Below, piece by piece: positions 7,122-39,197 of a stretch of DNA of 64,000 bases. The translations under genes were made by a program, and so were the position numbers. This DNA comes from Corynebacterium bovis DSM 20582 = CIP 54.80 (GTDB lineage: Bacteria; Actinomycetota; Actinomycetes; Mycobacteriales; Mycobacteriaceae). Below the pieces are notes generated by a model, which was given only the letters and a program-made list of their open reading frames with translations, was not told where the DNA came from and did not search any database. How positions within the stretch are numbered: the stretch's first letter is position 1; each line of letters begins with the position of its first letter. The stretch covers positions 1,922,001-1,986,000 of the forward strand of contig NZ_CP047187.1 of the NCBI RefSeq assembly GCF_030408615.1. The letters run 5' to 3'.

Positions 7122-8477
7122 GTGACTCACGCGACTGACCCGAGCCCCTCACCCGACAGCCGGTTCCACCACGGCCCCGGTCCGCGGTCGTCGGCCCTGC
7201 TCACCGACATGTACGAGCTGACGATGCTCGACGCCGCCCTGCGGGACGGCACCGCGCACCGCGCCTGCGCGTTCGAGGTGTTCACCCGCCGGCTGCCGAA
7301 CGAGCGCCGCTACGGCGTCGTCGCCGGCACCGCCCGGGTGCTCCGGGCCGTCCGTGACTTCGTCTTCACCCCCGAGCAGCTCGCCGAACTGGACTTCCTC
7401 TCCCCCGAGGCGCTGGAGTACCTGCGCGACTTCCGGTTCCGGGGGCGGATCGACGGCTACCGCGAGGGCGAGCTGTACTTCCCCCACTCCCCCATCCTCA
7501 CCGTGCGGGGCACGTTCGCCGAGTGCGTCATCCTCGAGACGGTCATCCTGTCGATCCTCAACCACGACTCGGCGGTGGCCTCCGCCGCCGCCCGCATGGT
7601 CACCGCCGCCGCCGGCCGGCCGATCATCGAGATGGGCTCGCGCCGCACCCACGAGTACGCGGCGGTGTCCGCCTCCCGCGCCGCGTACCTCGCCGGGTTC
7701 ACCGCGACGAGCAACCTCGAGGCCTCCGCCCGCTACGGCATCCCCGCCTCCGGGACGGCCGCCCACGCGTGGACGCTCCTGCACACGACGGAGGACGGCC
7801 CCGACGAGGCGGCGGCGTTCCGCGCCCAGGTCGAGGCCCACGGCACGGACACGACGCTGCTCGTCGACACCTACGACATCACCGACGGGGTCCGCACCGC
7901 CGTCGAGGTCGCCGGCACCGGCCTCGGCGCGGTGCGCATCGACTCGGGTGACCTCGGCGTCCTCGCCCGCCAGGTCCGCGAGCAACTCGACGCGCTGGGG
8001 GCGTACGACACCCGCATCGTCGTCTCCTCCGACCTGGACGAGTTCGCCATCGCCGCCCTGCGCAGCGAGCCGGTGGACTCGTTCGGCGTTGGGACGTCCG
8101 TCGTCACCGGGTCCGGTGCCCCGACCGCCGGGCTGGTCTACAAGCTCGTCGAGGTCGAGGGCGTGCCGGTGGCGAAGCGCTCCCGCAACAAGTCGAGCCA
8201 GGGCGGGGCGAAGCGCGCGGTCCGGGCCGTCCGGGCCACGGGCACGGCCGTCGAGGAGGTCGCCTTCCCCGTCGACGGTGACGTTCCCGACCTGGGGGTC
8301 CTCCGGGCCGTCGACCTCACCGTGCCGCTCATGGTCGACGGCGACCTCGTCGACGACCTCGGCACCCTCGACTCCTCCCGGGCGCTCCTCGCCGAGCGCC
8401 TCGTCTCCCTGCCCTGGGAGGGCCTCGCGCTCTCCCGTGACGAGCCGGTGCTGACCGTCCGTGTCACGGGGTTCTGA
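7122..8477 (+). CDS. pncB: Nicotinate phosphoribosyltransferase
   Basis: PncB converts nicotinate and PRPP to nicotinate mononucleotide in NAD salvage. The protein (451 aa from GTG 7122) begins its core with SSALLTDMYELTML and has the catalytic-region GSRRTHEYAA, TSNLEASARYGIPASGTAAH, VDTYD and the phosphate-binding IDSGDLG and FGVGTSVVTGSGAP. Upstream in-frame codons exist, but GTG 7122 sits just after a TACGAT-like -10 sequence and begins the conserved part. Divergent from clpS, as is common in corynebacteria. nadE lies further along the window. Confidence 0.95.
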   Translation: MTHATDPSPSPDSRFHHGPGPRSSALLTDMYELTMLDAALRDGTAHRACAFEVFTRRLPNERRYGVVAGTARVLRAVRDFVFTPEQLAELDFLSPEALEYLRDFRFRGRIDGYREGELYFPHSPILTVRGTFAECVILETVILSILNHDSAVASAAARMVTAAAGRPIIEMGSRRTHEYAAVSASRAAYLAGFTATSNLEASARYGIPASGTAAHAWTLLHTTEDGPDEAAAFRAQVEAHGTDTTLLVDTYDITDGVRTAVEVAGTGLGAVRIDSGDLGVLARQVREQLDALGAYDTRIVVSSDLDEFAIAALRSEPVDSFGVGTSVVTGSGAPTAGLVYKLVEVEGVPVAKRSRNKSSQGGAKRAVRAVRATGTAVEEVAFPVDGDVPDLGVLRAVDLTVPLMVDGDLVDDLGTLDSSRALLAERLVSLPWEGLALSRDEPVLTVRVTGF

Positions 8478-10614
8478 GACCGGCGGGGGCCGGTCGGGGG
8501 GTGGGGTCGTCGACCTGCTCGACCGGGCCGTCGCGGCCGTCGGCGGCGCCCCCCGGGAGGGCCAGCGGAGGATGACGACGGCCGTCGCCGCGGCCCTCGA
8601 GGGGGACAGTCACCTCGCCGTCCAGGCGGGGACGGGCACGGGCAAGTCCCTCGCCTACCTCGTGCCGTCGCTGCGGCACGCCGTGCAGGCCGGGGAGCGG
8701 GTCGTCGTGTCGACGGCGACGATCGCGCTCCAACGCCAGCTCGTCGAGCGCGACCTGCCCCGGGTGACCGACGCCCTCGCGGAGGGCCTCGGCCGGCGGC
8801 CGACGTTCGCGATCCTCAAGGGCCGGAACAACTACCTGTGCCTCAACAAGATCAACGGCATGCCGGACCCGGTCGACGACGCGGAGGCGCTGCTCGACCC
8901 GTCGGCGGTGTCGCGGGTCGGCTCCCAGGTCGCCCGGCTCCACGAGTGGGCGGAGGAGACCGAGGACGGCGACCGGGACTCCCTCGCCCGGGGCGTCGTC
9001 GACCAGGCGTGGCGCCAGGTCAGCGTGGCGTCCCGCGAGTGCGTCGGGGCGTCCCGCTGCCCGTTCGGGGACACGTGCTTCGCCGAGCGCGCGCGGGCCA
9101 CGGCGGCGGAGGCGGACGTCGTCGTGACCAACCACGCGCTGCTCGCCATCGACGCCCTCTCCGATCAGCCGGTGCTGCCGGAGCACGAGGTCGTGGTTGT
9201 CGACGAGGCCCATGAGCTGGAACGACGCATCACCTCCGTCGCGACGGCCGAGCTGTCCGGCGCGGCGGTCGCCGTGCTCGCCCGCCGGTGCGCGAAGGTC
9301 GGGCCCGAGGGGTGCTCCGACGCGCTCACCGAGGCCGGGGACACGTGGGTCAGCGCGGTCGAGCACGTCGGTGACGCGGCGGTCGGCCGGTGGACGTCCG
9401 TGCCGCCGGACCTCCACGCCCCCCTCGTGGCGCTGCAGGACGCCCTGTGGCGGACGCGGCTGTCCCTCACCGGGCGGGGCGGCGCGGGGGCCGCCGGCGG
9501 CGGGACCGGTTCCGGCGGCGACGCGGCAGACGCCTCGCGCACGGCGGAGATCCACGCCTGCACCGCCGCGCTGGAGGAGCTGCACGACACGGTCGTGCGG
9601 GTGCTCGACAGTTCCCCGGTCGCCGCCGGTGGTGCCGGGGCCGCCGGGGCCGCGACGACGGCCGGCTCCCCCGGGTCCGGGGCCGACACCACCTCCCCCG
9701 CCGCGACCCCCGGGGACGCGGACTCGCTGTGGGGCGAGGACGTCGTGTGGCTCTCCGGCGACGCCCACCGCCGGACCGTCCGCGTCGCCCCGCTGAGCGT
9801 CGCCGACGTGCTCCGCCGGCGGCTGTTCAGCCGGCGCAGCGTCGTCCTCACCTCCGCGACCCTCGCCCTCGGCGGCCGGTTCGCCGCGATGCTCGCCACG
9901 TGGGGCCTGTCCGCGGACGCCTGCCGCACGATGGACGTCGGCAGCCCCTTCGACCCCGCCCGCCACGGCATCCTCTACACCGCCCGGCACCTGCCCGCGC
10001 CCGGCCGGGGCGGCCCGACCCCCGAGGCGGTCGACGAACTCGCCCGCCTCGTCAACGCCGCCGGGGGCCGCACGCTCGGCCTGTTCTCCTCCCGCCGCGC
10101 GGCCGAGGAGATGGCCGCGCAGATCCGACAGGTCAGCCCGTACCCGGTGCTGTGCCAGGGCGACGACGCCCTCGGCGCGCTCATCGACCGCTTCCGCGAC
10201 GAGGAGCAGACGTGCCTGTTCGGCACCCTCAGCCTGTGGCAGGGCGTCGACGTGCCGGGCCCGTCGCTGTCCCTCGTCGTCATGGACCGCATCCCCTTCC
10301 CCCGCCCCGACGACCCGCTCATGCAGGCCCGCAAGGAGGCGGCGGACTCCGCCGGGCGCAACGGCTTCATGGAGGTCGCGGCGACGCACGCGGCGCTGCT
10401 CATGGCGCAGGGGGCGGGGCGACTGCTGCGCAGCGTGACGGACCGGGGTGTCGTCGCGGTCCTCGACCCCCGCCTGTCGACCGCCCGCTACGGCCGGTTC
10501 CTCCGCGCGTCGATGCCCCCGTTCTGGCCGACCGAGGACGCGGGGACGGTGCGGGGGGCACTCCGCCGGCTCGTCGGCCCCGAGTCGGGGACGGGCGGCC
10601 CCGCGGCGACGTAG
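8461..10614 (+). CDS. dinG: DinG/XPD-family ATP-dependent helicase with Fe-S cluster
   Basis: The 717-aa superfamily 2 helicase has Walker A AGTGTGKS (residues 56-63) and a DEAH box (248-251). Cysteines of a 4Fe-4S domain lie between them (YLCLNK ... ECVGASRCPFGDTCFAE), as in XPD/DinG. The C-terminal half holds VVLTSATLALGG and the RMxAxGAGRLLRS-type motif VI (LLMAQGAGRLLRS). Two Gly/Ala-rich low-complexity inserts occur near residues 340-360 and 385-420. The start GTG 8461 overlaps pncB by 17 nt. Probable role: unwinding of D-loops, R-loops or forks. Confidence 0.93.
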   Translation: MSRGSETGGGRSGGGVVDLLDRAVAAVGGAPREGQRRMTTAVAAALEGDSHLAVQAGTGTGKSLAYLVPSLRHAVQAGERVVVSTATIALQRQLVERDLPRVTDALAEGLGRRPTFAILKGRNNYLCLNKINGMPDPVDDAEALLDPSAVSRVGSQVARLHEWAEETEDGDRDSLARGVVDQAWRQVSVASRECVGASRCPFGDTCFAERARATAAEADVVVTNHALLAIDALSDQPVLPEHEVVVVDEAHELERRITSVATAELSGAAVAVLARRCAKVGPEGCSDALTEAGDTWVSAVEHVGDAAVGRWTSVPPDLHAPLVALQDALWRTRLSLTGRGGAGAAGGGTGSGGDAADASRTAEIHACTAALEELHDTVVRVLDSSPVAAGGAGAAGAATTAGSPGSGADTTSPAATPGDADSLWGEDVVWLSGDAHRRTVRVAPLSVADVLRRRLFSRRSVVLTSATLALGGRFAAMLATWGLSADACRTMDVGSPFDPARHGILYTARHLPAPGRGGPTPEAVDELARLVNAAGGRTLGLFSSRRAAEEMAAQIRQVSPYPVLCQGDDALGALIDRFRDEEQTCLFGTLSLWQGVDVPGPSLSLVVMDRIPFPRPDDPLMQARKEAADSAGRNGFMEVAATHAALLMAQGAGRLLRSVTDRGVVAVLDPRLSTARYGRFLRASMPPFWPTEDAGTVRGALRRLVGPESGTGGPAAT

Positions 10615-26631: not shown

Positions 26632-27113
26632 GGTGGAGTCCTTCACAGGGTGTGTGGGGAGGCGTCGTCCGCCGCGACCCGTGCGGGTCGCCGCGCCCGC
26701 GCCCCGCTGGTGTGTGTGGTCGTCGCGTGGCGTCGCCCGCGCGGCGCGGGGACCCGGCCGACCGGCCGGTGCCCGCGCCCGGGGGACGCCGCCCCACATT
26801 GTACGACCGGCCCGCCCGCACCGAAAGCTGACATGTCAACAATGTCGGTGCAGCAGAGTCCCCCTCCCCCGGCACCCCCGCCGCCGCAGCGGCGCGCCCC
26901 GGAGCGCCCGGCCGCACCGCCGCCGACCCCGCGCTGACCTGCGCCCGGACCGCGATCCGGCCGGGGCCGCCACCCCACCCGGACGCCGCCGGTATCGCGT
27001 CTGCGACCCCCGCCCGAAGCGTGCCGTCGTCTCCCCTCGGAAAACCGCATTTCATGACAGACGGCCGCAGAACCGCTATTGTCGTCACGGTTCCCGAACC
27101 GGAAGGAAATTCC
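26632..27113. other. Divergent intergenic region between VKOR and MHS transporter genes
   Basis: A 482-nt non-coding gap. It contains the 10-nt palindrome TGACATGTCA (26829-26838), followed at once by ACAATGT, with an inverted copy ACATTGT about 40 nt before. These could be operator sites for the transporter. Around 27010-27110 it becomes AT-richer, the likely promoter of the plus-strand gene. No gene is supported. Confidence 0.45.
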
Positions 27114-28598
27114 ATGCGACGAAGCCACAAAAGTGCTTCAGTCCTCCGCGAAGAGGACATCCATGTCGTCGACCAGGACGAAATGAAAAAAGCCCTCCGG
27201 GCAACCCTCCTGGGAAACTTCATGGAGTGGTTTGACATCGGCATTTTCGCCTACGTCATGACCTACATTTCACTCCTGTTCTTCCCGCTGCCGTCCCCGT
27301 GGGACCAGCTGGCCTCGTTCGCCACCCTCGCCGTGACCTTCCTGGTCCGGCCCCTCGGCGGACTGATCCTCGGCCCCCTCGGCGACCGCATCGGCCGCCG
27401 CCGGATCCTCGCCTTCACGATCGTGGCGATGTCCCTGGGCACGTTCCTCATCGGTGTGCTGCCGACGTACGCGCAGATCGGCATCGCCGCCCCGGTGCTG
27501 CTCATCCTGCTGAAGTTCATCCAGGGCTTCTCCACCGGCGGCGAGTACGCCGGCGCGGCGACGTTCATCGCGGAGTACTCCTCCGACCGGCGCCGCGGAT
27601 TCTGGGGCTCGTTCCTCGACTTCGGCTCCTACCTCGGGTTCGCGGCCGCCGCCGCGCTCGTCACCGTCGTCGAGCTGCTGACCGACGACGCCCAGATGGA
27701 GTCCTGGGGCTGGCGCATCCCCTTCCTCGTCGCCCTCCCCCTCGGCCTGGTCGGCGTGTACATGCGCTCCCACATCAAGGAGTCCCACACCTTCGAGGCC
27801 AACCAGGAGGACAAGGAGAAGAAGGCCCAGGCCGGCGGTGCCCCCGAGGAGGGCATGGTCGCCCAGGTCCGCTACCTCGTGAAGACCTTCTGGCCGCAGA
27901 TCCTCATGGGCTCCGGGCTCGTCATGTGCGCGCAGGTCGTCGGCTACGCCCTGACGACCTACATGCCGACCTACCTCACGGACTCCCTCGGCTACGACAC
28001 GCTCCACGGCAACGCGCTGCTCGTCCCGGTGCTCATCATCGTGTCCGTGGCGCTGCCGCTGTTCGGCGCGCTGTCCGACCGTGTCGGCCGGCGCCCGGTC
28101 ATGCTCACCGGCTGTGTCGCGGGTGTGATCCTGGCGATCCCGGCGTTCATGCTCATGATGATGGGCCACACGTGGTCCACCCTCGCCGGCCTCATGATCA
28201 TCGGCGTCATCATGATGTTCCAGGTGTCCGTCCAGGCGTCGGCCCTGCCGTCGCTGTTCCCGACGGAGAGCCGCTACACCGCGATGGGCCTGATGTTCAA
28301 CATCGCCGTGGCGCTGTTCGGCGGCACGACCGGCTTCGTCATCAGTGCCCTGCAGAGCATCATCGGCTCCGACATGGCCGGCGCGTACTACATCATCTTC
28401 GCGTGCATCGTCGGCGGCATCGGCGTGTACTGCATGAAGGAGTCCTCCGGCCGCAACCTCATCGGCTCCATGCCGGTCGTGGACCACGAGCACGAGGTCC
28501 GCGGGGTCGTGGAGAACGTCGAGGCGAACGAGAAGTACGACCTCGAGACGATGCCCGTCGACGGGCCCGTCGACATCGAGACGCTCCGCGGCAACTGA
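27114..28598 (+). CDS. MHS-family proton symporter (ProP-like)
   Basis: A 494-aa major facilitator of the metabolite:H+ symport family. NFMEWFDIGIFAYV, RPLGGLILGPLGDRIGRRRIL (motif A), GFSTGGEYAGAATFIAEY and GFWGSFLDFGSYLG are characteristic of ProP/ShiA members. Twelve membrane segments and a charged C-terminal tail of about 45 residues are seen; ProP osmosensors have a similar extension. GGAAGGAAA precedes the ATG at 27114 and fixes the start. Substrate is likely a compatible solute or carboxylate. Confidence 0.88.
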   Translation: MRRSHKSASVLREEDIHVVDQDEMKKALRATLLGNFMEWFDIGIFAYVMTYISLLFFPLPSPWDQLASFATLAVTFLVRPLGGLILGPLGDRIGRRRILAFTIVAMSLGTFLIGVLPTYAQIGIAAPVLLILLKFIQGFSTGGEYAGAATFIAEYSSDRRRGFWGSFLDFGSYLGFAAAAALVTVVELLTDDAQMESWGWRIPFLVALPLGLVGVYMRSHIKESHTFEANQEDKEKKAQAGGAPEEGMVAQVRYLVKTFWPQILMGSGLVMCAQVVGYALTTYMPTYLTDSLGYDTLHGNALLVPVLIIVSVALPLFGALSDRVGRRPVMLTGCVAGVILAIPAFMLMMMGHTWSTLAGLMIIGVIMMFQVSVQASALPSLFPTESRYTAMGLMFNIAVALFGGTTGFVISALQSIIGSDMAGAYYIIFACIVGGIGVYCMKESSGRNLIGSMPVVDHEHEVRGVVENVEANEKYDLETMPVDGPVDIETLRGN

Positions 28599-28943
28599 GT
28601 CGCGGAGGCTGAGCCGCTGACGCTGACCCGCGGGGGCCGGGGAAACCCGCGGGGGCCGGGGGACATTGGCGGGGATTCCGGGGGGCTCGACCCGCCGGGA
28701 CCGGGGGCGGGGCTGGGGGGCTTCGCCGGGGACCCGGGGTCGGGTTGAGGGGTGGGGCCCGGGGGCCGGCTCCGCGGGCAGGTGCCCGGGGGCCGGTCTC
28801 CGGGGAGAGAGACAACGTGACCCGGGGGATGAGTCACTCACGACGCCGCCTCTCCCCGCCTCCGCGCTCCCCCGGTCCCGCCCGCCGGCGCCGTCGGGCG
28901 CGCGGATGGTGAGAGTTCCCGGGGGCTGCTCCCCCGGGTTGGC
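28599..28943. other. G-rich intergenic DNA before the low-GC island
   Basis: Non-coding, extremely G-rich on the plus strand, with several copies of CGCGGGGGCCGGG and CCCGGGGGCCGG. It ends abruptly near 28940, where base composition falls. A gene terminator is not clearly visible. It marks the host side of the accessory-region boundary. Confidence 0.6.
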
Positions 28944-29198
28944 CTAGAAGGCTGAACAGCTACACAAGGCCTCAAGCCGCAATTGGCCCCCGAGGTAGAG
29001 AAATGCCCACAGGGCCGTAGATACATGGTCGCAGCAGAGGCTCAGATCAGAGCCTTGCGAAGACGCTCCGCTCGGCGCCCCTCGCCACGCGCGGAAGACC
29101 AGACAGGCGAACTCAGCTGACAGCGTGACGAGCCTCACTGTCAACACGCCCTCGACAAGCAGAAGGTGTTCGGCCAGGCGAGAAGCCCAGTGGCACAT
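28944..29198 (-). pseudogene. Truncated ORF at the low-GC boundary, possible McjB/transglutaminase-like fragment
   Basis: An 84-codon frame starts at an ATG preceded by a GAGGGGGGGG tract and stops exactly where GC-rich DNA begins. It reads MCHWASRLAEHLLLVEGV, a hydrophobic helix, then FRAWRGAPSGAS and LYLGGQLRLEALCSCSAF. By eye the RGAP segment and the Leu-Gly-Gly-Gln/Cys-Ser region loosely recall the N-terminal half of lasso-peptide B2 (McjB-type) peptidases, which are longer. The similarity is weak and needs a profile search. It could also be a chance frame. It is divergent from the peptide gene. Confidence 0.3.
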
Positions 29199-29559
29199 CC
29201 CCCCCCTCAAGCACTGCCCTGTATCGACAGGTCAGACAACCGAGTACAGCACGCCACCAACGATACACCCCCACATGGGGGCACATTTTTATAGGATCGG
29301 CACCCTCCCTTTTACGGGACACCCCACGCCGGCCCCACAAGAAAAGTCGAACCTAGGGACGAAAACAACTGGCCACAATGCCGAACGGAGAAGTACCAAT
29401 ATAGACATAGTGACACCTCTCTCTCTTTGAGCGACTGACGTTATAAGCATCTGGAAATAATCGCCCAAGACCCTAGACCGCGGGCTTCAGGTCCGCTATC
29501 CTGATCGCAGGGAATTCCCCCAACCCACCCCAGAACACCAACGACAGGAGGTGAAAAAG
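29199..29559. other. Low-GC leader region of the peptide operon
   Basis: A 361-nt AT-richer region between the truncated minus-strand frame and the short peptide gene. Open frames on both strands exist but show no start signals or recognisable products. It should hold the promoter(s) for the operon. The best candidate is listed separately. Confidence 0.55.
29474..29502 (+). promoter_or_regulatory. Candidate sigma-A promoter of the peptide operon
   Basis: TAGACC (29474-29479) and TATCCT (29497-29502) are separated by exactly 17 nt, about 58 nt before the short ORF. Both hexamers deviate from consensus, so this is tentative. Confidence 0.4.
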
Positions 29560-29625
29560 ATGAAGAACGTCACCGTTCGCCGAGCTGACAAGCTCGAGGC
29601 AACCGTCCACTGGATCGTCTTCTGA
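29560..29625 (+). CDS. Putative 21-aa RiPP precursor peptide
   Basis: The ORF has AGGAGG 8 nt before its ATG, the best ribosome-binding site in the region. It encodes a peptide with a basic N-terminal part (MKNVTVRR), a central ADKLEA and a hydrophobic C-terminus TVHWIVF. It has no Cys or Ser and two Thr, which argues against lanthipeptide or azole chemistry. It stands 106 nt before an MccB-like adenylating enzyme, with a hairpin between, as mccA does in microcin C operons. MccA peptides end in Asn; this one ends in Phe. Translation is well supported; the role as substrate is inference. It could instead be a regulatory leader peptide. Confidence 0.75.
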   Translation: MKNVTVRRADKLEATVHWIVF

Positions 29626-29648
29626 CGCACCAACAGAAGGTAGAGAGA

Positions 29649-29681
29649 CCCGGTGATCCATACTGCGTACGGATCACCGGG
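29649..29681 (+). terminator. Hairpin between peptide gene and MccB-like gene (attenuator-like)
   Basis: CCCGGTGATCC (29649-29659) pairs perfectly with GGATCACCGGG (29671-29681). TAC/GTA inside the loop can extend the stem. No U-run follows, so it may be a leaky terminator, a stabiliser of the upstream mRNA, or both. Such a site would set the peptide-to-enzyme ratio. In microcin C operons a hairpin lies at the same place. Confidence 0.7.
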
Positions 29682-29731
29682 ACTCCGTGACTTTCGAACC
29701 GTTTTAAGGCCAAGTTGAAAAAGGGTATCAA

Positions 29732-30862
29732 ATGTTTGAATCTTCCAGTCGCCCCACTATAAAACCAATCTATCCCGTATACAGGCTCGACAGCGAAACG
29801 TTCCGCATTGGCGCCCAGATCGGTATCACGGCGGAGTTCCACGACCCAGACGCAACCCTGTGGACTCTCGTCTCCATCATGGACGGACGGACAACAGCGG
29901 AGATCGTGCAGGAAATGACAGGTCGATTCCCGGACCTTGACGAAGGCGATGTCCTTGACGGGATCAACCTGCTTCACAACGAGGGCTTTGTTGAAGACGG
30001 CAGCGGACCTAGTCGAATCTTTGGCGCACGCCTACAGCCTAACATCAGCTATTTTAGCCATTTCTCCAGCCCGGAGAAGTCTAAATATGACGTTCAAAAT
30101 GCCATCAAAGACACAAATGTTCTTCTTTTGGGTCTCAGCGGAGGCGGATCCAATATCTTGACCCTGCTGGCCGGCATCGAACCCAAGTCGATCACCGCAG
30201 TCGATTACGATCGTGTCGAGGAAGGGAATCTTGGTCGTCAATTTATCTACCGCGAGCATGACATCGGGACACTCAAGACTACAGCCGCAGCAAACGCACT
30301 GGCGGAGATGAACTCAAACATTGCCTTTCACGCGGTGAACGAAAAAATCGAATCGCCGAGCCAAGTCACAGACCTCCTCCACGACAACGATATCGCGATT
30401 TGCGCAATCGACGAACCCCCCTTCAAGGCCCAACGCATCGTAAACAAGGCCTGCATCCTGGCCGGCAAGCCGTGCGTTTACGGCGCTTCGCAGGTGAGCC
30501 ACGGACGAGTATTCACAATCATTCCGGAAGAAACGGGATGCTTTGACTGCTTGAACATTCACTACAGTCAGCGCGACCCCCAGTTCCTGAGCCAGTTTGA
30601 GGGATTTGCGGAATCTAAGTTCGATCCGCCATCGATCGCCTACGGACCTGCGATGTTCACGCTAAGCGCTACGATCGTCGACGAAGTTGTGCGGACGATA
30701 ACAAGCTATGCTCCTCCGCGCTCACATGGACTCCAACTAGAGGTTGATTACGAAGACGGGTCGCAATCACAACACCCTTCCTGGCCCCGATTCGCCGACC
30801 TTTGCCCAACGTGCGGAGCCGGCGACGAGTCGCAGTGGCCGATTTTCTCACTTTATGGATAA
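29732..30862 (+). CDS. MccB/ThiF-type peptide-adenylating enzyme with N-terminal RRE-like domain
   Basis: The 376-aa protein has an N-terminal segment (about 15-92) resembling the PqqD/RRE winged helix that binds leader peptides: IGITAEFHDPDATLWTLVSI, then GRTTAEIVQEM, then DVLDGINLLHNEGFV. The E1-like domain follows: glycine loop GLSGGG (134-139), VDYDRVEEGNLGRQ with Asp158, Asp160 and Arg169, and AICAIDEPP with Asp227. Zinc ligands are C270xxC273 and C358xxC361. The FDPPSIAYGPAMFTLSATIV stretch parallels MccB of microcin C. No rhodanese or cyclodehydratase domain. Expected activity: ATP-dependent adenylation of a peptide C-terminal carboxylate. Codon use and GC differ from the chromosome. 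Starts at ATG after AAAAAGGG. Confidence 0.88.
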   Translation: MFESSSRPTIKPIYPVYRLDSETFRIGAQIGITAEFHDPDATLWTLVSIMDGRTTAEIVQEMTGRFPDLDEGDVLDGINLLHNEGFVEDGSGPSRIFGARLQPNISYFSHFSSPEKSKYDVQNAIKDTNVLLLGLSGGGSNILTLLAGIEPKSITAVDYDRVEEGNLGRQFIYREHDIGTLKTTAAANALAEMNSNIAFHAVNEKIESPSQVTDLLHDNDIAICAIDEPPFKAQRIVNKACILAGKPCVYGASQVSHGRVFTIIPEETGCFDCLNIHYSQRDPQFLSQFEGFAESKFDPPSIAYGPAMFTLSATIVDEVVRTITSYAPPRSHGLQLEVDYEDGSQSQHPSWPRFADLCPTCGAGDESQWPIFSLYG

Positions 30863-30887
30863 GGCACACAACGGAAGGAGGCGTATC

Positions 30888-31856
30888 GTGAATCTGAAAC
30901 CCGTGTCAGCACGAAAGCTGCGGTCGGGAAGTTGGGTAGTCGTGGCCGACGGATCAGCCCCGCTCGTAATGACTGAAGAATTAAAGGACGAGATGATCCA
31001 CGGCGAGATTGACTCCTGCGAGCTTTCTCTCGACTTACTACGGGAATCGGGCTTCATTGCGGATTCTGCGACCACCTGCCCGAGCATCCCGACAGCGGAC
31101 GACATCCCTCTCGGGACGATTTCAACTCCCGCTCTCTGGACCATCGGCAGGCTGTCCGTGCTGACGTTGACAAAGCACTTCATCACGTTACGGCGTAAAC
31201 CTCTTTCAGGTCCAGGAAAAGCGCCTGCATCAGTGGTTCGTTTTTTATTGTCTGCAGTCGCTAGCGGCGTGTTGGGATCTATCCCCCACGAGGCCTCCCA
31301 CATATATTTTGGTGCCGCATGGAGAAGCGGGAAAAACCCCCTTCACGTTTCCGTATTGAAGGGTACGGCAACAACGTCACTGACACATGTCTGGACCTGG
31401 GGAGTTCGTGAACGATTGACTGCCGTTAGTTCCGGGATTATTATCGATTTGGCCAGCTTGGCAGCCCTGGAGTTGTTGAACAAACGTAAACCATCCAGTC
31501 TGTTGTCAGTTGCGTCGTCGATGACTGCAGCACGCTTGTCACTCCAACTCCGCTTCCACCGGAACTGCGACGGACGGCATATTGCGATGTTACTCATTGA
31601 CAACCCGGATATCGCGGCCGAATGTAGGGACTTCGCTAAAACAAAGTCGCTGGCGTCAGCACCTCGCGAAGTTAAGCTATGGTTCACACTCGAGGCTATC
31701 GGTAGACTTATAGAGGTTTCCTCAATTTTCTACTGGATAGTTCGGCCCGCACTTAGAATGATCAATAGGAAAGCTGGCATCCGACATCGCGCCCCCTTAA
31801 TGCGACGCATGTTGGCACCGTATTCGCGGCTGGGATTCATGGAAGGGAAACCTTGA
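30888..31856 (+). CDS. M50-like membrane zinc metalloprotease with N-terminal extension
   Basis: GTG 30888 follows GGAAGGAGG closely and gives 322 aa. Residues 1-65 (RSGSWVVVADGSAPLVM ... LDLLRESGFIAD) are soluble and may be a degenerate PqqD-like peptide-binding domain. The IPHEASHIYFGAA motif gives HExxH at 134-138 next to a membrane helix. NCDGRHIAML (226-235) supplies the second M50 motif with Asp228. At least three hydrophobic segments are present. M50-like proteins occur in several RiPP clusters, cutting leaders or acting in immunity. Stop overlaps the ABC ATPase start (TGATG), so the operon continues. Exact function unknown. Confidence 0.75.
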   Translation: MNLKPVSARKLRSGSWVVVADGSAPLVMTEELKDEMIHGEIDSCELSLDLLRESGFIADSATTCPSIPTADDIPLGTISTPALWTIGRLSVLTLTKHFITLRRKPLSGPGKAPASVVRFLLSAVASGVLGSIPHEASHIYFGAAWRSGKNPLHVSVLKGTATTSLTHVWTWGVRERLTAVSSGIIIDLASLAALELLNKRKPSSLLSVASSMTAARLSLQLRFHRNCDGRHIAMLLIDNPDIAAECRDFAKTKSLASAPREVKLWFTLEAIGRLIEVSSIFYWIVRPALRMINRKAGIRHRAPLMRRMLAPYSRLGFMEGKP

Positions 31857-32803
31857 TGGCTATCACCAAAACTGCCAACGATGCAGTGTGCCTTAAGAAC
31901 ATCCGTAAGACCTACCGCGGGTCGACCACGCCGGCGAACGACGGCATCACCCTGACCTTCTCCCCCGGCGAGGTCATCGCGCTCATCGGCCACAACGGGG
32001 CGGGCAAGACCACCCTGCTCGGCCAGATGTCCGGCCTGGTCGCCCCCGACTCGGGCAGCATCCGGTACCGCGACCGTGACCTGACGCGGGACCCGTCCTT
32101 CGCCCGGACGGTGACCGCCATGATGCCGCAGGCCGGCACACCGCTGACCGGGGTGACCCCCCTCCAGGCGGTCACGTCCATCGGGCGGATCCGCGGGTAC
32201 GGCGGACCCGCGGCCCGGCGCGCGGCGGGGCAGCTCGTCGACGCGCTCGACATCGGGGACTGGGCCTCGACCCGCGGTGACCGGCTCTCCGGCGGCATCC
32301 GCCGCCTGACCTGCTTCGCGATGGCGACGATCGCCCCGCCGCCGGTGCTCCTCATCGACGAGCCGACGAACGACGTCGACCCCACCCGCCGGCCCCTGGT
32401 GTGGAGACACCTGCGGGCCCTCGCGGACGACGGACACGTCGTCATCGTCGTGACCCACAACCTCAACGAGGTCCAGGAGACGGCCGACCGTGCCGTCCTC
32501 CTCCACCACGGCCGGGTGCGCCTGGACACGACGTCGGCGGAGCTCGCCGCCGACAGCGACCCGCGGTCGGTGCGCATGACCGTCCGGACCCGCGACCCGA
32601 CGGTCCGGGCACCCGCGTCCTGGGGCGGCTCGTGCCACACCGACGACGGCGGGCTCGTCGTCGACGTCGAGCCCGCCGACCTCGGGACCGCGACCACCTG
32701 GGCCACCGCCCTCGTCCGCTCCGGGGAGGCGGACGGGTACAGCGTGTCCCCCGCGTCCACCTCGCTCGAATCGACCTACCGGAGGCTCACCGATGACCAC
32801 TGA
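31856..32803 (+). CDS. ABC transporter ATPase 1 of the peptide operon
   Basis: The 315-aa protein has Walker A GHNGAGKTT, Q-loop in MMPQAG, signature LSGGIRR, Walker B VLLIDEPTNDVDP and H-loop THN, so it should be active. It has a 75-residue C-terminal extension after the ATPase core. ATG 31856 overlaps the M50 stop. Codons up to about residue 20 share the AT-richer composition of the upstream genes, while the rest is at chromosomal GC, so the gene straddles the composition boundary. It overlaps the next permease gene by 11 nt. Confidence 0.9.
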   Translation: MAITKTANDAVCLKNIRKTYRGSTTPANDGITLTFSPGEVIALIGHNGAGKTTLLGQMSGLVAPDSGSIRYRDRDLTRDPSFARTVTAMMPQAGTPLTGVTPLQAVTSIGRIRGYGGPAARRAAGQLVDALDIGDWASTRGDRLSGGIRRLTCFAMATIAPPPVLLIDEPTNDVDPTRRPLVWRHLRALADDGHVVIVVTHNLNEVQETADRAVLLHHGRVRLDTTSAELAADSDPRSVRMTVRTRDPTVRAPASWGGSCHTDDGGLVVDVEPADLGTATTWATALVRSGEADGYSVSPASTSLESTYRRLTDDH

Positions 32804-33572
32804 CCCGGTGACCGTCGTCCCCGCGGACCCGCTCCCCCGGACCCGGTGGGTGACCAGCTGGCTGGCGCTCGTGCGGTGGAGTGTGATCCGGCACGCGTAC
32901 TTCCTCCCCGTCGTCGCGGCGGTCCAGGTCCTGTTCTCCGTGGCGGTGATCTACGGGATCCCCCTCATGCTCCCGGCCGTCGACGAGACGACCGCGCGGT
33001 ACGTCTCCACCGGGACGTGGACGCTGTGCACGCTCGCGGTGGGCTGCGTGCTGGCCCCGCAGCTGCTCAGCGTGTCCAAGGTGGAGGGGCTGCTCGACTA
33101 TCAGAGGACCCTGCCGGTCCCCCGGTCCGCGCTGCTCATGTCCGACGTCCTCGTCTGGCTCGTGATCGCCCTGCCCGGGATCGTGTCCGGCATCGTCGCC
33201 GCGCAACTCCGGTTCTCCGGGTACATCACGGTCACCCTCACCGTGGTTCCCGTCATCCTCGCCTGCCAGGTCACCGTGCTGCTCATCGGGTACGCCCTGA
33301 CGTTCTGGCTTCCCGCGGACGCGAGTTCCCTGGCGACCCAGGTCATCCTCATCGGGTCCCTGCTCTTCTCACCGATCGTCTACCCCTCCGACCGGCTGCC
33401 CGGGTGGCTCGTCACCGTGCACGGGTACCTGCCGTTCGTTCCGGTCAGCAGGGTGATCAGACACTTTTCCTTCCCCACCGACGGCGTCCCGCTCGCTCCG
33501 GTGTCGGTCATCGTCGTCTGGACCGTCGTCGCCTACGTTCTGTGCCTCGCGGCACTGTCAAGGAGAAAATAA
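32793..33572 (+). CDS. ABC-2 type permease 1
   Basis: A 259-aa integral membrane protein with six hydrophobic segments (about residues 30-50, 68-88, 112-140, 150-180, 187-205, 230-252), the layout of ABC-2 exporter permeases. It contains the conserved loop YQRTLPVPRSALLMSDVL. Its ATG overlaps the end of ATPase 1, so the two should form one exporter complex. Substrate presumably the modified peptide or an immunity target. This is inference. Confidence 0.85.
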   Translation: MTTDPVTVVPADPLPRTRWVTSWLALVRWSVIRHAYFLPVVAAVQVLFSVAVIYGIPLMLPAVDETTARYVSTGTWTLCTLAVGCVLAPQLLSVSKVEGLLDYQRTLPVPRSALLMSDVLVWLVIALPGIVSGIVAAQLRFSGYITVTLTVVPVILACQVTVLLIGYALTFWLPADASSLATQVILIGSLLFSPIVYPSDRLPGWLVTVHGYLPFVPVSRVIRHFSFPTDGVPLAPVSVIVVWTVVAYVLCLAALSRRK

Positions 33573-33575
33573 CCG

Positions 33576-34307
33576 ATGGATCGATACCCGATTCTCAGTA
33601 CGCAGAGCCTGGCGAAGAGCCACGGCAGAAAAGTTCTCGTCCACCCCACCACGATGGAGATCCTCCCCGGGGAGGTGTGCGCCCTCATCGGACCGAACGG
33701 CGCCGGAAAGACCACACTGCTCAAGACCGTGTGCGGGTTCGTGCAGCCGACGTCGGGGACCGTCCTGGTCGACGGCCAGCCCCTGACCACCGCCACCCGC
33801 ACCACACTGCTGCCCCGGATCGGCGTCGTCATCGGCCCGCTCGAGGTCCCGAAGCGCACGACCGCCCGGCAGGTGCTCGAGCGCCACCTGCGGCTCATGG
33901 GCCGGACCGGTGACGACCCGGTCGAGCCGATGCTGCGGCGCGTCGGCCTCGACTACGCCGCCGACCTCCCCGTGAACAGCTTCTCCCTCGGCATGAAGCA
34001 GCGACTGTCCATCGCCCGCGCCCTCGCCCACGGGCCGTCGCTGCTCATTCTCGACGAACCCACCAACGGCCTGGACCGGGACGCCGTCGACGGCCTGAAC
34101 GACATCCTCACCGAGATCGCCGCGCAGGGCCACGCCGTCATCCTGTCCACCCACGTCCGGTCGGACATCTCACTCATGGCCCGGACCGCCTACATCATGC
34201 ACCGGGGCCAGCTGGGCCGGAAGTTCGACCTCACCACCATGCCCGCTGAGGGTCCCGGCTCCCTCGACGACGCCTACCGGGCCGCCACCACAGGAGGACA
34301 CCAGTGA
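33576..34307 (+). CDS. ABC transporter ATPase 2 of the peptide operon
   Basis: A 243-aa ATPase with Walker A GPNGAGKTT, Q-loop region replaced by PRIGVVIGP, signature FSLGMKQRL, Walker B LLILDEPTNGLD and THVRSD as H-loop. The SLGM signature is typical of the BcrA/LanF group of drug-export and self-immunity ATPases. AAGGAGAAAATAACC precedes the ATG. It overlaps the following permease by 4 nt (GTGA). With the next gene it may serve self-immunity while pair 1 exports, or vice versa. Confidence 0.9.
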   Translation: MDRYPILSTQSLAKSHGRKVLVHPTTMEILPGEVCALIGPNGAGKTTLLKTVCGFVQPTSGTVLVDGQPLTTATRTTLLPRIGVVIGPLEVPKRTTARQVLERHLRLMGRTGDDPVEPMLRRVGLDYAADLPVNSFSLGMKQRLSIARALAHGPSLLILDEPTNGLDRDAVDGLNDILTEIAAQGHAVILSTHVRSDISLMARTAYIMHRGQLGRKFDLTTMPAEGPGSLDDAYRAATTGGHQ

Positions 34308-35009
34308 AAACCATGATCGCGACAGAGTTGAAGCAGTACCGGTCGACCCTGGTCTACCTCTTCCTCGCCGGCTTCGTCCCCGTCCTGCTGTTCCTCTACT
34401 TCTTCGGCGCCATCAGCAGGGCGGACTCCGACCCTGACGCCGCGGCGTTCCTCGACTACCACCTCGTCGTGAACCTGTCGCTGACCGTCACGCTCGGCGT
34501 CGTGTCGGTGACCGGCGCGGTGGTGTTCGCGCGGTCCGTCATCGCCGACTACGTCGGCGACCGGCGCATCGCGCTCTACATGTACCCGTACGGCCGCTCG
34601 CCCCTCTTCACCGCCAAGACACTCGCCGCCCTCATCGCGATGGGCATGGCGGCGGTCGGCACCGTCGCCGGCATCATCGTCTTCATCCTCGCGCAGCAGG
34701 CGTGGGCCGTCATCCCGGACATGCCGCTGGCCGAGGCGCTCGTCTACGCGTTCGGCGCCTCCGTCAGCACCGCCATCCTGTCGCTCGCGCTCACCGTCCT
34801 GTCCGGGTGCATCGGCATGTGGTGGCGCTCCCCCCCTGGGGTGCCTGATCACCGGCGTGATCCTCGTCTGCATCTGCGGCAACAGCGTCGGGATGTCCTC
34901 CTCCTCGTCGCTGGGCGTCTCCTGGTTGACGACGGGCGTCGCCGTGGTCCTCGCCCTCGTGGGGGTGTTCGTCATCCGTCGCCGGACGGACACCGACGAC
35001 ATCCTCTGA
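34304..35009 (+). pseudogene. ABC-2 permease 2, frameshifted at a C7 tract
   Basis: The frame opens well (MKTMIATELKQYRSTLVYLF) and gives six-segment permease sequence up to about residue 174. Seven Cs at 34830-34836 then throw translation out of frame into an unrelated Arg-rich tail. Dropping one C restores membrane sequence (LGCLITGVILVCICGN ... VVLALVGVFVIRRR) to a stop at 35009, giving 234 aa and a normal family end. It is either a real loss-of-function or phase-variable mutation, or a homopolymer sequencing error. Partner of ATPase 2. Confidence 0.85.
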
Positions 35010-35032
35010 CGCACTGCTCGTCGGACACGCGA

Positions 35033-35061
35033 AAACCCCCGGTCGCTGAGACCGGGGGTTT
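35033..35061. terminator. Bidirectional terminator at the end of the ABC operon and tRNA-Ala
   Basis: AAACCCCCGGTC pairs perfectly with GACCGGGGGTTT around the loop GCTGA. It lies 24 nt past the restored permease stop and 11 nt past the 3' end of the opposing tRNA gene. The minus-strand side is followed by TTTT. Confidence 0.9.
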
Positions 35062-35072
35062 GTCGTTGATGG

Positions 35073-35145
35073 TGGAGCTAACGGGACTCGAACCCGTGAC
35101 CCCCACACTGCCAGTGTGGTGCGCTACCAGCTGCGCCATAGCCCC
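35073..35145 (-). tRNA. tRNA-Ala (anticodon GGC)
   Basis: A 73-nt cloverleaf: acceptor GGGGCTA with TAGCTCC, D-arm GCGC/GCGC, anticodon arm CCACA-CTGGCAG-TGTGG with anticodon GGC, and T-arm ACGGG-TTCGAGT-CCCGT. CCA is not encoded. Its 3' end faces the accessory region. Confidence 0.97.
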
Positions 35146-38822: not shown

Positions 38823-38828
38823 TGTCAG

Positions 38829-39197
38829 TGGAGCCGCCGGGAATTGAACCCGGGTCCTTCGCAACCTCGCCAGGGCTTCTCCGTGCGCAGTCCGCTCCAT
38901 CCCTGCTCGGCTCTCCGGGTCACGCGGACCAGCCCGGACGATGAGCCCAGCCGCCTGCAGATGTCCCGCGCGGCCCAGACGGCGCAGCCGCGCGGCGAGT
39001 CCCCTGAACGATGCCGGTGACCGGGTCGGGGACGTACCCGGGCCGACAGACACGCGTCGCTGCTTAGGCAGCGAGGGCGTAGTCGCGCTGAGTGTTCTCG
39101 GCGCTTATCAGGTTGCTGCGACGCTTACGGTGGTCTCCAGCCTGCACCGGCACGCTTCCCCTGGCTCAATCAACGAAGTCGAAACCATGTCGGCCCC
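38829..39197 (-). ncRNA. ssrA: tmRNA (SsrA)
   Basis: A 369-nt tmRNA that rescues stalled ribosomes together with SmpB. The 5' end GGGGCCG pairs with the 3' CGGCTCC to form the tRNA-like acceptor, and the TTCAATTCC T-loop is present near the 3' end. The reading frame at 39064-39102 encodes the degradation tag AENTQRDYALAA and a TAA stop, close to the corynebacterial tag type. CCA is not encoded. smpB is only 3.1 kb away. Confidence 0.97.

Follow-up and report, generated by a model that had tools for sequence, protein, structure and literature searches.

A run of genes on the plus strand at 29560–35009 of a 64,000-nucleotide stretch of Corynebacterium bovis DSM 20582 = CIP 54.80 (contig NZ_CP047187.1, positions 1,922,001 to 1,986,000; the whole stretch is called the window here) is, as judged from its sequence, an actinobacterial member of the enterofaecin group of ribosomally synthesized and post-translationally modified peptides (RiPPs), and not a microcin C system. 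The cluster consists of a short precursor open reading frame (ORF), a hairpin, a gene for a ThiF-type enzyme, a gene for an HExxH membrane protease and two ATP-binding cassette (ABC) ATPase–permease pairs. The enzyme probably closes a four-residue W-I-V-F indolylamide ring, in which the indole nitrogen of Trp18 would be joined to Phe21. A preliminary description of this DNA had already recognized the compact plus-strand run and placed it around a peptide-modifying ThiF/E1-like enzyme with an N-terminus like a RiPP recognition element (RRE), and both points stand, with slightly refined coordinates. Its further claim of an undescribed pathway has to be given up, as enterofaecin (EnfA/EnfB, PMC12250964) and IndA/IndF (PMC12150305) are published relatives.

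Precursor peptides

The precursor gene (29560–29625, +) encodes a 21-residue peptide, MKNVTVRRADKLEATVHWIVF, with a leader motif VRRA, the residues EAT directly ahead of the core and the end HWIVF, which places Trp at −4 and leaves a C-terminal Phe. It is preceded by the ribosome-binding site AGGAGG (29546–29551, +), 8 nt ahead of the ATG. Comparison with other genomes shows this 21-codon ORF to be a real gene: of 33 loci with this enzyme, spread over Actinomycetota and Bacillota, 31 have a matching precursor upstream of it. The preliminary description had named the lack of a conserved short ORF in homologous runs as a refuting outcome, and this did not occur.

The 33 loci comprise the window, a plasmid (L023), a genome of the same genus (L024) and 30 loci on genome contigs. 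The latter were found with an alignment of the enzyme, an earlier scan with the single protein having returned no relative; in all, 216 ThiF relatives were matched at E ≤ 1e-10 (best 120 listed). Twenty-eight of the precursors were picked by eye from lists filtered for a ribosome-binding site, for which Trp was not required, and three more were recovered with a Trp pattern. No precursor was found at L038, where the upstream sequence extends for 133 bp only; the second exception, L052, is considered with the ring chemistry below. Five further precursors (a second copy in L044 and those of L059, L092, L094 and L097) brought the collection to 36, of which 31 are distinct; that of L059, like three in the 33-locus set, came from a pattern requiring Trp near the end.

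All 31 distinct precursors, which are 19–23 residues long, carry Trp at −4. The neighboring positions vary: −5 is Trp in 18 and Ser in seven, with His in the window only, and −3 is I, G or V. All 31 end in F, I, V, L or A. The natural core variants among them, such as HWIVF, RWIII, SWGVF, KWGAI and NWVFF, offer a resource for enzyme work.

Three loci show unusual precursor arrangements. L044 has a tandem pair of precursors (7655–7833) before a single ThiF gene, ending in KWVIF and SWIIF. L059, in genome G669 of the same genus, has a distinct precursor, MKGVKVRPLNERGKVKVKWGAI (7466–7534), accompanied by genes for ThiF, ATPase 1 and permease 1; no protease or second pair was found there. In L056 (G371) a distant ThiF relative (E 4.6e-43) is preceded by a 35-residue ORF ending TTGWRVIGAGG, which could be a further precursor type.

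The closest described system is enterofaecin from Enterococcus faecalis FDAARGOS_397. According to PMC12250964 its precursor EnfA has 21 residues, a (V/I)RKA leader and a WWIVI end, and is accompanied by the RRE-bearing ThiF enzyme EnfB, whose residues R167, K180 and D225 are singled out, and by four transporter proteins. The window shares with it the precursor length, a (V/I)R(K/R)A leader, the end WI-V-hydrophobic, the pairing of ThiF and RRE, four transporter proteins and the ATP-site residues. It differs in belonging to another phylum, in having His where EnfA has the first Trp, in ending with Phe and in lacking a kinase/regulator pair; the account in PMC12250964 makes no mention of the protease. 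The precursors of L032 and L092 match the description of EnfA, and 14 of 21 residues are common to each of them and the window precursor. Descriptions of the class come from lactic acid bacteria, and the loci compared here extend its range to Actinomycetota, Bacillaceae and clostridia.

The ThiF-type enzyme

The enzyme gene (29732–30862, +) encodes 376 residues with a ThiF domain (PF00899, E 2.4e-46) behind an RRE-like N-terminus, and its product is an EnfB-like, predicted peptide cyclase. By sequence, its best matches among proteins of solved structure are MccB (E 6e-19, residues 107–342) and PaaA (E 1.2e-13, residues 5–220). A structure model with a mean predicted local distance difference test score of 91.5 superimposes on MccB and PaaA with template modeling scores of 0.72 and 0.70, at about 20% identity. 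The N-terminal region of the model fits MccB and PaaA, and the Pfam signal for an RRE is weak (PqqD, 14 bits, below the cut-off). R169, K182 and D227 are invariant across 37 aligned rows and correspond, within one position, to R167, K180 and D225 of EnfB.

The preliminary description had assigned the system to the MccB type, in which the enzyme would couple the peptide C-terminus to adenosine monophosphate (AMP) through a phosphoramidate and so yield a Trojan-horse mimic of an aminoacyl-tRNA. The fold is shared, with an N-terminal domain in both; MccB is the best solved relative on sequence and structure alike, and a small precursor followed by a hairpin recalls MccA. Nevertheless, the Asn end required for the MccB product occurs in 0 of the 31 distinct precursors, the window peptide included, and none is a heptapeptide, given lengths of 19–23 rather than seven residues. 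The identity to MccB is only about 20%, and no MccC- or MccF-like gene was recognized among the window's cluster genes, an absence that the preliminary description had itself reported. We regard microcin C chemistry as highly improbable here. Pantocin A offers a looser parallel, since PaaA is likewise a ThiF enzyme with an RRE region, but its core chemistry is different and the identity in the fold alignment is 18%.

Membership of a non-peptide ThiF/MoeB family, which the preliminary description had named as a refuting outcome, was rejected: the best NCBIfam ThiF/MoeB match reaches 106.8 of 275 bits, and the precursor is conserved. An anti-phage E1–E2 system was likewise rejected, as the common E1 fold alone matches. 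Cys248 was considered as a catalytic residue and dismissed because, although invariant in the 37 rows, it is Ser in two IndF-like proteins.

In a phylogenetic tree the Actinomycetota and Bacillota rows part with one change, a weak separation (71% of bootstraps), and the window belongs to no well-supported set. Interrupted copies of the system were also seen: L024 has a late in-frame stop in ThiF, L046 a stop early in the matched stretch, L053 a split ThiF gene, and L095 a truncated precursor together with a ThiF stop.

Chemistry of the predicted C-terminal ring

The bond made by EnfB is questioned in print, and the present comparison bears on it. IndF of Streptococcus pneumoniae links the C-terminal Ile carboxylate of NWYFI to its Trp at −4, as shown by nuclear magnetic resonance (NMR), and IndF residues Y228 and K256 are proposed to activate the indole (PMC12150305). 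For EnfB, by contrast, PMC12250964 reports from mass spectrometry and NMR an imide formed by attack of the Ile19 backbone nitrogen. We favor the indole-nitrogen ring for the window because Trp at −4 is invariant while −5 and −3 vary, because the spacing is that of proven IndA (Trp also stands at −4 in 4/4 of the IndA-like precursors found here), and because an imide route has no obvious need for the side chain at −4.

The window and IndA/IndF systems have more in common than this spacing: both combine an RRE-ThiF enzyme with a precursor that has Trp at −4 and a hydrophobic C-terminus, and the ATP-site residues Gln and Lys are kept. Residues Q167, K179, Y228, K256 and T298 of IndF align with Q170, K182, F231, R259 and S301 of the window enzyme. 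They are also set apart by about 25% identity, by the change of the indole-side Tyr/Lys to Phe/Arg and of T298 to Ser301, by the longer, unrelated leader of IndA and by IndP, which is described as an M16 protease (PMC12150305). An IndF-like enzyme beside an NWYFI precursor, found in L103, carries all five named IndF residues and matches the enzyme family profile with E 4.2e-35 at 25% identity.

Several observations weigh against an indolylamide in the window. Phe231 and Arg259, which replace Y228 and K256 of IndF, are invariant in all 37 rows; with the ATP contacts kept and the indole-side residues changed, no other evidence speaks as strongly against carrying IndF chemistry over unaltered. 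Residue 17 is His where EnfA has Trp17, and both Trp17 and Trp18 of EnfA are reported to matter (PMC12250964). The imide reported for EnfB is itself a contrary point, and L052 has no Trp-ended precursor. (At 7880–9130 of that locus an ORF lacking such an end extends in frame in the direction of the ThiF gene, which is followed by a major facilitator superfamily [MFS] transporter gene and not by ABC genes.)

If the same points are read the other way, the window enzyme would make an imide, closing a C-terminal ring through the backbone nitrogen of Ile19. Such a product is what has been reported for the closest studied enzyme, and the absence of the IndF indole-side residues from window-type enzymes would be in keeping with it. 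It would leave unexplained why Trp at −4 is constant in 31/31 distinct precursors amid a variable −5 and −3, and the enterofaecin structure is called unsettled, and in need of further NMR, by the authors of the IndF study (PMC12150305). We consider the imide unlikely and keep the indolylamide as the preferred product.

A wider proposal can be put forward tentatively. The whole family, VHWIVF included, may form with IndA a single cross-phylum class of Trp-ringed peptides defined by a W-x-x-C-terminus indolylamide; the published enterofaecin imide would then be misassigned, one branch would use an epipeptide-like intramembrane protease that reads an E/D-A-T cut site, and Arg/Phe would take the place of the Lys/Tyr of IndF.

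IndA-like sequences also turned up in their own right: an NWYFI coding end was present besides a family member in 2/8 genomes searched, G680 (L047/L091) and G677 (L041/L090), and in G680 an IndF-like gene follows it. Viral contigs gave 0 matches to the IndA core.

Protease and leader motif

The gene behind the enzyme (30888–31856, +) encodes a 322-residue HExxH metalloprotease of intramembrane type, a predicted leader protease. The preliminary description had treated it as an M50 protease and a special addition to the pathway; a protease adjoins the enzyme in 21/33 loci, so it is no peculiarity of the window. H134, E135, H138 and D228 are invariant among its relatives, and the HExxH lies within or beside a hydrophobic stretch in 23/23 members. 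The window protease has no Pfam or NCBIfam match at E 1, and a sequence search for solved relatives gave none of significance. Among the relatives, the M50 profile PF02163 matches 4/23 only, weakly (best E 0.18). NF058609, the model for the YydH/LiaK epipeptide protease, matches 6/23 members (best 1.3e-6), far under its curated cut-off of 225 bits; the window protease is unmatched, and the best of nine members scanned singly reaches 25.7 bits.

The resemblance to YydH/EpeP of Bacillus subtilis, a protease regarded as likely to mature epipeptides (PMC7026026, PMC10885120), is thus distant. In both cases a membrane HExxH protease has a RiPP precursor gene and ABC genes as its neighbors, but the partner enzyme is a ThiF protein here and a radical SAM protein there. 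These loci are of interest in that a ThiF cyclase is accompanied by a protease distantly similar to YydH, for which a cut motif is predicted.

The motif, [EDN]-A-T directly ahead of the core, occurs in 20/20 precursors from loci with the protease vs 0/12 from loci without it (Fisher 4e-9, kinship ignored). Because it tracks the presence of the protease in this way, we read E/D/N-A-T as a probable recognition or cut site. This assignment is weakened by the disregard of kinship in the correlation, by the Asn in the motif of L046 and by the 12 loci that have no acidic-Ala-Thr motif.

Proposed pathway

From the observed gene content and conservation patterns we infer the chemical steps, cut site, transport roles and biological role as follows. 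Translation of the precursor would start from its strong ribosome-binding site, while the hairpin that follows would hold the enzyme to a lower level than the precursor. The RRE-like N-terminus of the enzyme would hold the VRRA leader while the C-terminal carboxylate of Phe21 in the 21-residue precursor is adenylated; attack of the Trp18 indole nitrogen on this activated carboxylate would then close the ring, with ATP spent, AMP released and the peptide left one water lighter. Cleavage by the HExxH protease, at E-A-T or close to it, would free a core of ~5–7 residues, e.g. (T)VHWIVF, for which ABC pair 1 would serve as exporter and ABC pair 2 as protection of the producer cell.

Transporters and integrity of the cluster

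ATPase 1 (31856–32803, +), a predicted exporter component by Pfam, NCBIfam and locus comparison, overlaps permease 1 (32793–33572, +), which matches ABC2_membrane_3 with E 1.3e-7, slightly below the cut-off of that model. The two occur together in 25/33 loci. ATPase 2 (33576–34307, +) has a predicted role in self-protection; its nearest model is the lantibiotic-protection ATPase TIGR03740, with 156 bits against a cut-off of 310. Both ABC pairs are present in 17/33 loci, with the second pair lying upstream in L025 and L030.

Permease 2 changes reading frame in the window sequence, which, like the His at −5, is a peculiarity of the window. Its first part (34304 to about 34837, +) goes out of frame at a run of C near 34830; the tail resumes in another reading frame (34857–35009, +). 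The frame change counts against a working system, since the cluster may be decaying: loss of permease 2 would abolish self-protection, and nothing would be produced. Patchy presence (3/201 genomes of the genus) would suit such a remnant. On the other side, all remaining genes of the cluster (precursor, enzyme, protease and three for transporters) are open, and a single-base assembly error in the run would look the same as a real lesion. We judge a decaying remnant decidedly improbable.

Hairpin, regulation and role of the product

Between precursor and enzyme genes lies a hairpin (29645–29685, +), a likely attenuator or partial terminator by folding and shuffle statistics. Called perfect in the preliminary description, it is present but not quite that: its 19-nt arms (29645–29663 and 29667–29685) are 89% complementary. 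The 15-pair stem with one mismatch is better than all 60 mononucleotide shuffles, and the folding z of 29540–29745 is −3.45, with 1/200 shuffles equally good. A hairpin after the precursor outscores all 60 shuffles in 27/32 loci, the exceptions being L023, L029, L041, L042 and L054. A T-rich tail follows it in 18/32 loci; the window, with T at 4 of 12 positions, lacks one. A consensus search for a promoter found none.

Enterofaecin has been suggested to act in quorum sensing (PMC12250964), and the window product could likewise be a sensed signal, of the same chemistry and different in role alone. By tblastn, 10/18 Bacillota loci are flanked by a histidine kinase/response-regulator pair resembling that of L023 (in L029 the regulator only), and in L023 and L047, the two on which Pfam was run, it consists of a GHKL kinase and a LytTR regulator. 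Within the flanking stretches available, the pair occurs in 0/15 actinobacterial loci. A search for LytTR genes, positive in Bacillus subtilis and four other control genomes, shows the window's genome to have none. A signaling role is on this evidence rather improbable, and a competition peptide is the more likely product in this host.

In L024 the genes for protease and ATPase 1 are separated by a TetR gene in antisense orientation, and L033 has a similar ORF there; the window has no match to either (best E 0.44).

Distribution and genomic site

Within the genus the enzyme occurs in 3/201 genomes (that of the window included), with a different precursor in each. It was found in 2/396 genomes drawn from the phylum, again with the window's own and with a weaker second match, and in 12/395 from the order to which a Streptococcus genome belongs, where part of the matches are IndF-like. 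Named loci come from Actinomyces, Tessaracoccus, Bifidobacterium, Nonomuraea, Microbacterium, Bacillaceae and clostridia. A housekeeping gene neighboring the cluster supports, without proving, the corynebacterial host inferred in the preliminary description: among its best 120 of 7999 matches, many with a name are from Corynebacterium (65–72% identity), with Brachybacterium and others also represented. Searches of open-licence literature by text (motifs; ThiF RiPPs with actinobacterial terms) found no paper on actinobacterial members.

The cluster occupies a variable site beside a tRNA gene. Comparison with genome G010 delimits an interval without counterpart there (26800–35069), which holds an MFS gene (27021–28598) and the cluster and is bordered by a tRNA-Ala gene (35070–35145, −); the distance from a VKOR-like gene to this tRNA is about 300 bp in G010 and 8.3 kb in the window. 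In G017 about 4.2 kb lie between the same two genes, with no matches to cluster genes. G015 (L087) has no VKOR-like gene within 8.7 kb beyond the tRNA and is hence uninformative on insertion. A duplicated tRNA end that would mark integration was sought, and no second copy with ≤3 mismatches is present in the window; a repeat search was likewise unhelpful. GC content in 500-base windows is 53–58% over about 29000–31850, compared with 63–81% in the flanking ones. Further downstream, at 38828–39197 of the window, lies an ordinary transfer-messenger RNA gene.

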